From: Rhodocyclaceae bacterium
GTDB taxonomy: Bacteria; Pseudomonadota; Gammaproteobacteria; Burkholderiales; Rhodocyclaceae
Direction of reading: 5' to 3'
Assembly (NCBI GenBank): GCA_020445765.1
Contig: JAGRFY010000036.1
Location: forward strand, 1 to 35,537
Length of the DNA: 35,537 bases
The notes beneath the pieces were generated by a model, which saw only the letters and a list, made by a program, of their open reading frames with translations, did no database searches and had not been told where the DNA came from. Shown one piece after another: positions 5,190 through 34,825 of this stretch. A program made the translations under genes and the position numbers. The number at the start of each line of letters is the position of its first letter. Positions within the stretch are counted from its first letter, which is position 1.

Positions 5190-5372
5190 TGGCCCCCCGC
5201 GTGTGCCGCCCTGGCCGGGCATCCTGAACCGAGGGTTCAGGGAGGTCGCCTTCCGATCGCCTCAGGCATTCCCGACAGTGGGGACGGCACACTGGCGAAT
5301 CATCAGTCGGCAACCTAGTCTCGAAGACATTGGTTCAAGGAATCTACGGCCAACACAAACACTGCAGGGGAT
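5190..5372 (-). ncRNA. ssrS: 6S RNA (SsrS)
   Basis: About 183 nt on the minus strand downstream of zapA, the usual 6S position. The 5' segment (CCCCTGCAGTGT) pairs with the 3' segment (ACACGCGGGG) to form the closing stem. The 3' half contains CTGAACC-CTCG-GGTTCAG-type pairing followed by GGGCGGCACACGC, the counterpart of the E. coli 3' region ending GGCGGCATC. A TTGAACC block occurs in the 5' half. 6S RNA mimics an open promoter and sequesters sigma-70 RNA polymerase in stationary phase. Ends are approximate (within a few nt); a terminator hairpin follows. Confidence 0.85.
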
Positions 5373-5396
5373 TGACCCCGACGCCCGCAGCGCTCT

Positions 5397-29925: not shown

Positions 29926-30788
29926 CGTTCTTCGAGCTCCGCGGCGGGTGCGCCCGCCGGCCTCTTGTATCGGTTGTAGCCCCACAGGTACTGGCCAGGG
30001 CAGCGGCGGATCAGCACTTCCAGTTCGCGGTTGATGGCCGCCGCGCGCGCTTCGGCGTCGCCCGTCAGCGGATGCTGCGGCAGACTCAGGTGCAGATGGT
30101 ACCCGCGGCCGCGGTCGAGTCGCTCGGCCCAGGCCAGGATGGTCTGGCAGCCGGCCACTGACGACAGTCGCGCGGCGAGGGTCATGGTGTAGGCCGGGCG
30201 GCCGAAGAACGGCAGCCATGCCCCCTCCCCGCGCGCGGGCACCTGGTCGGGCAGGATACCGGCCGCATGGCCGCCGCGCAGCGCCCGGATCAGCCGTCGC
30301 ACGCCGCCGGTGTCCGCAGGTGCCAGTTCGATCGCGCCGCCGGCGGCGCGTGCGCGCTCGACCAGGGCTTGCAGCGCCGCGCGCTTGGGCGGCCGGTAGA
30401 GCACGGTGATCGGTCGTCGTGCCGCGTAATACTGGGCGGCAATTTCGAAGCAACCGAGGTGCGGCGTCAGGAACAGGATCGCCCGCTTCTCCCGCCACGC
30501 GTCCTCGACATGCTGCCAGCCGCTGACCGCCGCGACGCGCGACAGCACCTGCTCGCGGGGCCGCAGCCACACCCACGGCAGTTCGAAGGCCTGACGCCCG
30601 GCCCCGGCGACGGCGGCCGCAAGCACACCGGCCGGCAGCGGATCACCGAAGGCCTGGACGAGATTTGCCCGCAGACGACGTCGGTAGGTCGGGGATGCGG
30701 CATAGGTGAACCATCCCGCCAGCCAGCCGACGCGATGCAGCGCCGCCAGTGGCAGCATGGACAGGAAAGAGAAGAGGCGGGCGATCAA
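29922..30788 (-). CDS. Lipid A biosynthesis acyltransferase (LpxL/HtrB family), HxxxxE form
   Basis: A 288-residue homologue of its downstream neighbour. An N-terminal anchor (MIARLFSFLSMLPLAALHRVGWLAGW) precedes the catalytic pair His110/Glu115 (TPHLGCFE), VLYRPPKRAALQ, GILPDQVPARGEGAWLPFFG and CPGQYLWGYNRYKRP. HxxxxE instead of HxxxxD is a known variant in this family. It begins at a TTG (30788); an ATG at 30758 is less likely because it would shorten the anchor. The pair probably adds the two secondary acyl chains of lipid A. It is divergent from metK. Confidence 0.9.
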   Translation of the reverse strand: MIARLFSFLSMLPLAALHRVGWLAGWFTYAASPTYRRRLRANLVQAFGDPLPAGVLAAAVAGAGRQAFELPWVWLRPREQVLSRVAAVSGWQHVEDAWREKRAILFLTPHLGCFEIAAQYYAARRPITVLYRPPKRAALQALVERARAAGGAIELAPADTGGVRRLIRALRGGHAAGILPDQVPARGEGAWLPFFGRPAYTMTLAARLSSVAGCQTILAWAERLDRGRGYHLHLSLPQHPLTGDAEARAAAINRELEVLIRRCPGQYLWGYNRYKRPAGAPAAELEER

Positions 30789-30830
30789 GAGTCCGCAGCC
30801 GAAGATGAATTTCGCATCGGTTGACAGCCA

Positions 30831-30859
30831 GCCTGATGCGGCCGGAGTGTCGCTATAAT
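30831..30859 (+). promoter_or_regulatory. metK promoter
   Basis: A consensus -10 TATAAT lies at 30854-30859. The -35 region at the normal distance (GCCTGA, 30831-30836) is weak; a consensus TTGACA sits at 30821-30826, too far away at 27 bp. The predicted transcription start is about 30866, exactly where the riboswitch P1 stem begins. Confidence 0.65.
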
Positions 30860-30863
30860 AACG

Positions 30864-30930
30864 GCTTCCGCCGAGTTAACCCGACAACTTGCAGGGCGGA
30901 ACGGTCAGCGAAAAAATACTGCTAAAGCGT
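30864..30930 (+). promoter_or_regulatory. SAM-II riboswitch upstream of metK
   Basis: The H-type pseudoknot of the SAM-II aptamer can be drawn. P1 pairs TTCCGCC (30866-30872) with GGCGGAA (30895-30901). The P1 loop is GAGTTAACCCGACAACTTGCAG, whose CTTGCAG (30888-30894) is the conserved SAM-II loop end. Its GCAG (30891-30894) pairs with CTGC (30919-30922) in CTGCTAAAG, the conserved 3' motif. An A-rich linker (CGAAAAAATA) lies between, as in the family. SAM binding should stabilise P2 and lower metK expression, giving feedback on SAM synthesis. SAM-II is best known from alphaproteobacteria, so its occurrence here is less expected. A covariance search would confirm it. Confidence 0.78.
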
Positions 30931-30946
30931 CGTCCGCTCGACAAGG

Positions 30947-30990
30947 TCCCCGGAGCTGGCAGCGCGCAAGCCACCGGGGATTATGTTTTG
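30947..30990 (+). terminator. Candidate attenuator hairpin in the metK leader
   Basis: TCCCCGG (30947-30953) pairs with CCGGGGA (30974-30980), and inside it TGGC (30957-30960) pairs with GCCA (30970-30973). TTATGTTTTG follows, a partial U-tract. It lies 17 bp after the SAM-II aptamer and ends just before the GGAG ribosome site of metK, so it could be the expression platform. Confidence 0.5.
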
Positions 30991-31001
30991 GAGCACTGCC
31001 G

Positions 31002-32168
31002 ATGAGCCATGACTATCTGTTCACGTCCGAATCCGTGTCCGAAGGTCACCCCGACAAGGTCGCCGATCAGATCTCGGATGCGATCCTCGACGCGATCCTC
31101 GCCGATGACCCCCACGCCCGGGTCGCCTGTGAAACCATGGTATCTACCGGTCTGGTGGTGATCTCGGGCGAGATCACCACCAAGGCCCACGTCAATTACC
31201 GTGAGCTGGCGCAGGAGACGGTGCGGCGCATCGGCTACAACGACTCGGACATCGGTTTCGACTACAAGTCCTGCGCGGTGCTGACGGCCATCAATCGCCA
31301 GTCGCCGGACATCGCCCAGGGTGTCAACGAGGGCGAAGGGCTGGACCTCGACCAGGGTGCCGGCGACCAGGGCCTGATGTTCGGCTACGCCTGCGACGAG
31401 ACGCCGCAGTTGATGCCGCTGCCGATCTATTACGCACACCGCGTCATGCAGCGCCAGAGCGAAGTGCGAAAGGACGGCCGCCTGCCGTGGCTGCGGCCGG
31501 ATGCCAAGAGTCAGCTGACCGTGCGCTACGTCGATGGTCGGCCGGTCGAGGTCGACACCGTCGTGGTGTCGACCCAGCACGATCCGGAGGTTTCCCACGC
31601 CCAGTTGTCCGAGGCGGTGATCGAGGAGATCATCAGGCCGGTGCTGCCGCCCGAGCTGCTGACCAGCCGCACCCGATTCCTGATCAACCCGACCGGCCGC
31701 TTCGTCATCGGCGGCCCCCACGGCGACTGCGGTCTGACGGGGCGCAAGATCATCGTCGACACCTACGGCGGCGCGGCCCACCACGGCGGCGGCGCGTTTT
31801 CGGGCAAGGATCCTTCCAAGGTCGACCGCTCGGCCGCCTATGCCGGCCGCCACGTCGCAAAGAACATCGTCGCCGCCGGTCTCGCCGGACGCTGCGAAGT
31901 CCAGGTGGCCTATGCCATCGGCGTCGCCAACCCGGTGTCGCTGATGGTCGACACCTTCGGCACGGCGAGGATTCCGGAGCAACGCATCATCGAACTGATC
32001 CGGGAACACTTCGATCTGCGGCCGAAGGGCATCATCGTCGGCCTCGACCTGTTGCGCCCGATCTACGGCAAGACGGCCGCCTACGGCCACTTCGGACGCG
32101 ACGAGCCGGAATTCACCTGGGAAGTCACCGACAGGGCCGAGGCCTTGCGAGCGGCAGCAGGCATCTGA
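31002..32168 (+). CDS. metK: S-adenosylmethionine synthetase
   Basis: A 388-residue MetK making SAM from methionine and ATP. Signature stretches are [21 protein letters not shown] (His16, Asp18), [58 protein letters not shown] and [21 protein letters not shown]. The length is normal. The ATG at 31002 is preceded by GGAG at 8 bp. It is divergent from the acyltransferase pair and carries a SAM-II-like riboswitch in its leader, implying feedback by its product. Confidence 0.98.
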
Positions 32169-34644: not shown

Positions 34645-34652
34645 GGCGCAGT

Positions 34653-34740
34653 TCCGAGGAGCGCTGCGAGGATGCAAGCTTCGGCTGCCCCCAGGCTCGG
34701 GACCGGTCCGGCGTGCCGGCCAACCATCAACGGCGCTCAC
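34653..34740 (+). promoter_or_regulatory. S-adenosylhomocysteine (SAH) riboswitch
   Basis: All conserved blocks are present: CCGAGGAGCGCTGC (34654-34667), CCAGGCTCGG (34691-34700) and AACGGCGCTCAC (34729-34740). P1 pairs CCGAG with CTCGG. The pseudoknot pairs GAGCGC (34659-34664) with GCGCTC (34733-34738). A GC-rich arm (about 34702-34722) varies between members. SAH riboswitches turn ahcY on when the toxic product SAH accumulates. Downstream, CCCGTG-CACGGG (34748-34764) may be part of the expression platform before the AAGGAG ribosome site. Confidence 0.95.
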
Positions 34741-34825
34741 CTTTAGACCCGTGCCGGGCACGGGGTGCGAGGTGGGCAATGCTGCCGCTACACCCCAACC
34801 CGGCCACATCGTTCAAGGAGTTCGC

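Follow-up and report, generated by a model that had tools for sequence, protein, structure and literature searches.

The leader of metK in the 35,537-nucleotide stretch of Rhodocyclaceae DNA analysed here (the whole stretch is hereafter the window) is probably a SAM-II-family variant riboswitch shared by many betaproteobacteria, which would lower MetK synthesis when SAM is abundant; we put the probability of this reading at about 0.8. The element, as read from the sequence, occupies positions 30866-30931 of the + strand and combines the stem P1 with a pseudoknot P2 in two parts and with the letters of the SAM-II binding pocket. Comparing sequences establishes the pseudoknot of P1 and P2, the letters of the pocket, the homology to RNAs that match the Rfam SAM-II model and the association with metK, and we infer that SAM is the ligand of the leader. 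An earlier, sequence-only reading of this DNA had proposed a SAM-II-type aptamer on metK, and the architecture, pocket letters, compensatory changes and reciprocal detection by covariance models presented below all argue for that proposal. The features concerned are the following.

30854-30859, + strand: -10 promoter box TATAAT, ending 6 bases upstream of the element (sequence)
30866-30872, + strand: P1 5' strand TTCCGCC (covarying pairs in 49 and 62 leaders)
30875-30879, + strand: third-strand segment GTTAA, within GAGTTAA (column tallies, 62 metK leaders)
30883-30885, + strand: P2a 5' strand GAC, partner 30929-30931 (covariation)
30888-30894, + strand: CTTGCAG, comprising the pocket uridines T30889-T30890 and the P2b 5' strand GCAG (30891-30894)
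30895-30901, + strand: P1 3' strand GGCGGAA (covariation)
30919-30927, + strand: CTGCTAAAG, comprising the P2b 3' strand CTGC (30919-30922) and then the pocket TAAA (covariation, letter tally)
30929-30931, + strand: P2a 3' strand GTC (covariation)
30927-30934, + strand: 5' strand GCGTCGTC of a proposed competing (ligand-free) helix, putative partner 30958-30965
30958-30965, + strand: 3' strand GGCAGCGC of the same proposed competing helix
30936-30939, + strand: anti-Shine-Dalgarno GCTC, partner 30991-30994 (leader fold)
30946-30981, + strand: terminator-like hairpin, stem 30946-30953/30974-30981, followed by an interrupted T tract up to 30989
30990-30993, + strand: Shine-Dalgarno GGAG (sequence)
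31002-32168, + strand: metK, SAM synthetase, 388 aa (open reading frame; NCBIfam metK 613 bits, cut-off 309)
34650-34745, + strand: SAH riboswitch before ahcY (Rfam, 53.8 bits), 3.7 kb from the metK element
5190-5373, - strand: 6S RNA (Rfam, 59.3 bits)

P1, CTTGCAG, CTGCTAAAG and the GCAG/CTGC pairing lie within 30866-30931 exactly as they had first been read, and P2a (GAC 30883-30885/GTC 30929-30931) extends the pseudoknot beyond that GCAG/CTGC pairing. The MetK protein of the window is 69-86% identical to the 80 relatives kept (the best 80 of at least 590 confirmed); the closest named metK locus among the matches listed, L002, encodes a MetK 86% identical, and the source genome is Accumulibacter-like.

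The match to the Rfam SAM-II covariance model that the sequence-only reading had suggested looking for was absent. No SAM family, RF00521, RF01826 and RF01727 included, was placed at the metK leader by the scan of the window at gathering scores or by one of 30800-31010 at E<=10. Moreover, RF01726 (SAM-II long-loops) had no match at E<=10 in the genome from which the window comes, and none of the 16 metK leaders of relatives that were scanned, out of 48 pattern-bearing loci, reached any Rfam gathering score. We read this miss as the mark of a diverged variant rather than as a refutation, because models built from relatives that do match RF00521 detect the leader. One such model, R2, was trained on 21 betaproteobacterial RNAs matching RF00521 (20 loci and L001), 17 of which exceed the RF00521 cut-off of 36 bits, with the other four at 34.6-35.8 bits. 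With filters off, R2 scored the metK leader of the window at 27.7 bits (E=1.5e-6), the next match in the 35.5 kb having E=1.1; when run on the 80 metK loci together with the window, it returned 30 matches with E<0.01, all of them metK leaders, and the first match elsewhere had E=1. In the reciprocal direction, a model built from metK leaders (R1), to which P1 was supplied and the P2 pairs were not, detected all 21 of the RF00521-matching RNAs of the R2 set and nothing else at E<=10. As the RF00521 gathering score is a detection rule and not a biological feature, we speak of a variant and not of a curated RF00521 member. In the source genome, RF00521 matches at one place (L001, 34.6 bits against the cut-off of 36), where the element is followed by a T-tailed hairpin and then by a metX frame; so, judging from these matches, metX in this genome would have a SAM-II close to the canonical form, and metK a diverged relative of it.

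Compensatory changes in related metK leaders had also been put forward as a check, and both P1 and P2 do covary, far above shuffled alignments and slid partners. A pattern search of metK loci, taken as those of the 80 closest MetK relatives (the best 80 of at least 590 confirmed), yielded 48 leaders, which together with the window form an alignment of 49 (A1). In A1, 92.9% of the cells of P1, P2a and P2b are paired and nine pairs change on both sides; cells with double changes number 91, versus 32.4 in shuffles, and sliding the partners leaves 29-45% paired. The number of further pair types in A1 was not above shuffles (229/500). Since the search pattern fixes core letters, conservation counts on these 49 leaders are partly by construction, and the tally was therefore repeated on 62 leaders found by R1, 61 of them absent from A1, from sources chosen with metK downstream and with non-metK matches excluded (in L160 the contig ends just inside metK, and the metK start is seen by motif only). 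This second set gave 93.2% of cells paired, 11 pairs changing on both sides and 129 double-change cells, versus 49.9 in shuffles. P1 is open at its outermost pair in 26/49 and 26/60 leaders of the two sets, and P2a in 17/45 leaders of A1. In addition, P2b occurs among the leaders as GCGG/CCGC, GCAG/CTGC and GCGA/TCGC, and matched insertions in relatives turn P2a from GAC/GUC into GAAC/GUUC.

Regarding transcription, TATAAT at 30854-30859 predicts a start near 30866, the first base of P1, as the sequence-only reading had it. The box is well placed, and a -10 match of at least 5/6 is found at this position in 41 of the 49 leaders, against 3.6 expected from shuffles, but the promoter scan of 30700-31100 gave no full sigma-70 site and no -35 element at normal spacing; a TTGACA lies at 30821-30826, 27 bases from TATAAT.

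We then consider how ligand binding could be passed on to metK. After P2, the 49 leaders carry GCGUCGCC or a variant of it, the best downstream partners of which are GGCUACG, GGCAACG, CUGCGAC, GGUGCAACGC and similar segments. In 18 of the 49 leaders the resulting competing helix ranks with the top 5% of its shuffles, and in 28 the anti-Shine-Dalgarno pairing does so, with 2.5 expected in either case; as the leaders are related, these shuffle results are not independent. For the window leader alone, the competing helix (116/200 shuffles as good) and the anti-Shine-Dalgarno pairing (81/200) were no better than shuffles. RNAalifold returned the competing hairpin as the consensus fold of 16 Burkholderiaceae-type leaders, with 2 of 12 pairs covarying, little covariation being seen because this clade is conserved. 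P2a and the competing hairpin both require the GUC and are thus mutually exclusive, and in the predicted fold the hairpin moreover sequesters the strand whose alternative partner is the ribosome site. In the mechanism that we propose, SAM binding would stabilise P2a, into which the GUC of GCGUCGCC would be drawn. In the ligand-free state, the GCGUCGCC strand would pair with the downstream GGCNACGC segment, a pairing that would also tie up the anti-Shine-Dalgarno strand and disrupt the terminator stem, leaving the ribosome site free (ON); with SAM, the anti-Shine-Dalgarno strand would pair with the ribosome site and the start region (OFF), and in some Rhodocyclaceae the terminator may form as well.

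It is possible, if on the doubtful side, that the leader is instead a transcription attenuator, in which SAM drives formation of the 30946-30981 hairpin and terminates transcription before metK. T-tailed hairpins do follow the canonical betaproteobacterial SAM-II leaders inspected, and among the seven Accumulibacter leaders (the window, L002 and L156-L160) a run of at least four T begins directly or one base after the matching stem in five, namely in L002 and in four of the five others of the genus; the window and L157 are without such a run. The hairpin itself, which the sequence-only reading had noted between aptamer and start codon, exists, but it was not listed by a terminator scan of 30700-31100 with loops of 3-8. 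The loop limit of 8 excludes it, and a looser rule, with loops of up to 30, was therefore applied; by this rule the window hairpin qualifies (stem of 9 pairs, 5 T in 8). T-tailed stems were then seen in 4/7 Rhodocyclaceae-type leaders (window included) and in 6/42 others, to be set against the 28/49 leaders in which the anti-Shine-Dalgarno pairing stands out. As the T tract of the window is interrupted, translational control is the likelier main effect, and hiding of the ribosome site is, on the leaders compared, the more widely shared predicted platform.

Arrangements in which a canonical SAM-II and its terminator are followed by a metK-type variant and then by a small uncharacterised ORF were observed in L146, L147, L149, L192, L210-L213 and L215-L221. 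The ORF after these tandem arrays has about 85-112 aa and starts with M[YF]DC in all but L146, and the arrangement suggests that one mRNA is controlled first at transcription and then at translation. Twelve loci with neighbouring RF00521 and R1 matches all precede a small MYDC/MFDC ORF (85-112 aa), and their retrieved stretches contain no MetK. Both aptamers are found by pattern in 11 of these 12 loci, L214 showing one, though RF00521 lists a neighbour. Three M[YF]DC proteins had no Pfam or NCBIfam match above cut-off. Multiple elements were also seen in L161 (G492; an 80% complete assembly), where four SAM-II-like elements lie within about 1.7 kb: a tandem pair is followed by two short elements whose aptamer tail, through GCTAAAGAGGAG, itself contains the ribosome site. 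We consider it improbable, while granting it some weight, that the variant forms a functionally distinct SAM-II subclass, with another ligand or concentration range, specialised for translation and serving as a two-stage or two-input gate behind canonical SAM-II and its terminator.

Further small ORFs stand behind SAM-II-like elements in 13 gammaproteobacterial loci (L176-L188), all of one family of the same class. These elements read GATTTA...TTGCGGGGCGC...CGCTAAAGCGC and precede a different small ORF, which in most of the loci has an RNPKILLGG-like sequence. The family is Pseudomonas-like, L182 also having the Pseudomonas P11 RNA, and none of the nine loci scanned out of the 13 gave an Rfam SAM match at E<=0.05. 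For the small ORFs of the tandem or gammaproteobacterial elements, no Pfam or NCBIfam family scored above its cut-off, and we do not believe two weak matches, one to Methyltransf_11 (E=0.057) and one to PdxA (E=0.062). Moreover, RF02424 (Burkholderia sRNA Bp2_287) matches the strand opposite betaproteobacterial SAM-II leaders in all four loci that report it (L001 at 1482-1563, L133, L139 and L146), below its gathering score in each. RF02424 may be a wrongly stranded record of a SAM-II leader and its terminator, to judge from these positions; the accessible part of its source paper places the RNA upstream of methionine genes.

The letters of the binding pocket bear on the nature of the ligand. 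Position 30875 is G in 56/62 metK leaders and U, the canonical SAM-II letter, in 6/62, and the two following U (T30876, T30877) are unchanged in all 62; the UU of CUUGC is kept in 61 of the 62 (one gap) and UAAA in every one. T30876 and T30877 appear to match the triplex uridines of SAM-II and SAM-V. According to PMC6061858, SAM-V binds SAM in virtually the same manner as SAM-II, and alignment with SAM-V suggests that the sulfonium is faced by the uridines T30876 and T30890, that T30923 reads the adenine and that A30926 would contact the amino-acid end. In the window, the U to G change at 30875 alters the weak partner of T30923. The letter before the UU is C in the window and in 17/21 canonical RNAs, whereas SAM-V has A. 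A SAM-II-like fold that senses SAH, methionine or another SAM relative in place of SAM would accord with the prevalence of that U to G change, and with the position of the variant in other genomes, immediately downstream of a canonical SAM-II, an arrangement that would make a two-input gate if the second aptamer had a ligand of its own. Nevertheless, we hold a changed ligand to be quite unlikely: the leaders that keep U indicate that the change is tolerated both ways, the sulfonium-facing uridines (those of SAM-V, by alignment) and UAAA are unchanged, and metK makes SAM.

As for distribution, R1 finds the full element ahead of metK in 54/81 loci (the window and the best 80 of at least 590), 27 being without a full element; L032 has a truncated element at metK, and L044 a further weak match (E=0.037) away from its metK leader. 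There was no R1 match in loci that include Nitrosomonas, Gallionella, Ferrovum, Chromobacterium and gammaproteobacterial records. A whole-genome search of the order with R1 gave some match at E<=0.01 in 253/399 genomes, a figure that mixes metK elements, canonical SAM-II and other targets and is not a count of metK elements. The best 30 of these whole-genome matches all precede metK, as do 17 of 20 sampled lower matches, and related RNAs are also found ahead of metX, metH and metZ-like genes. With R1 at E<=0.001 and strict filters, 35/299 genomes of the phylum match, 22 of the same order and 13 of one other family of the same class, none being labelled outside the class. Two loci labelled Mycobacteriaceae (L020) and Akkermansia (L040) carry a betaproteobacterial-type MetK (71% and 69%) together with the metK element, and are probably mis-binned contigs.

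That the leader might be a degenerate SAM-II relic, a structured leader that binds no ligand, would fit its escape from Rfam, but we consider this very unlikely, given that many genera conserve both the core letters and the pairing and that the element is retained in 6/6 genomes of the genus searched. Least probable of all is a structured leader bound by a protein, such as MetK itself, rather than by a metabolite, for which this analysis found no supporting point: MetK has been proposed to bind RNA, with no specific interaction with the SAM-II RNAs studied there in the accessible part of PMC9373788, but related RNAs precede metX, metH and metZ-like genes and the reciprocal covariance models tie the leader to SAM-II.

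The SAH riboswitch that the sequence-only reading had seen on ahcY, less than 4 kb from the metK leader, was recovered by Rfam; the ahcY frame runs off the window, and its partial match of 254.7 bits is below the full-length cut-off. An SAH riboswitch was also observed downstream in 3/16 scanned metK loci (L004, L044 and L068). A SAM-II variant on metK would put SAM production (metK) and SAM turnover (ahcY) under two RNA classes 3.7 kb apart.

The sequence-only reading had taken SAM-II to be mainly alphaproteobacterial, but a betaproteobacterial setting is not exceptional, RF00521 matching 110/250 genomes of the order at E<=0.01 and 40/250 over its cut-off; the unusual features are the metK target and the variant. 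Papers of 2005 (PMC1273637) and 2007 had already mentioned SAM-II in Bordetella and beta-Proteobacteria, and the Bordetella SAM-II sequence of 2005 might in principle come from a metK leader. SAM-II in betaproteobacteria is hence not new, whereas its association with metK seems to be new. A metK SAM-II switch in these bacteria was not found in titles and the starts of abstracts of the open-licence literature, the accessible parts of PMC6429828, PMC8632094 and PMC3766115 name no metK SAM-II, and no open-licence paper was found that brings Accumulibacter and riboswitch together. Regarding metK, the central SAM-making gene, a dedicated study reports, in its accessible text, that in beta-proteobacteria it is not regulated by known regulators, and lists its control as unknown after a directed search (PMC4239095). 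A SAM-II variant missed by Rfam 15 would fill this gap in many betaproteobacteria. In addition, mechanistic studies would gain from it a set of translational SAM-II switches and of tandem SAM-II arrays.

Among known systems, the SAM/SAH riboswitch (RF01727), described only from Rhodobacterales according to the accessible part of PMC2864571, is likewise a small pseudoknot before metK. SAM-V (RF01826) shares the triplex pocket and the translational control proposed for the metK variant (PMC6061858), but its ribosome site is occluded in a 2-bp P2a, whereas P2a of the metK variant has 3-4 bp, and direct occlusion in P2a was not found in the window, where GGAG 30990-30993 begins 58 bases after P2a. 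The betaproteobacterial metXZ RNA element of Leyn et al. 2014 (PMC4239095), described as a pseudoknot with an alternative fold and a terminator before metX/metZ, was reported as new, the accessible text stating no ligand. Compared with that text alone, L001, the metX leader of the source genome, looks like this element, and it matches RF00521 at 34.6 bits. The metK variant differs from SAM-II (RF00521, SAM_alpha) in having GAGUUAA for GAUUUGA, a somewhat longer L1 and an often longer L3, in its metK target, in a ribosome site that lies tens of bases downstream of the aptamer, and in going undetected by Rfam. It shares with SAM-II the H-type pseudoknot of P1 and P2, the CUUGC and GCUAAAG core, the association with methionine and SAM genes, and a promoter just before P1, a placement that PMC1273637 describes as well.
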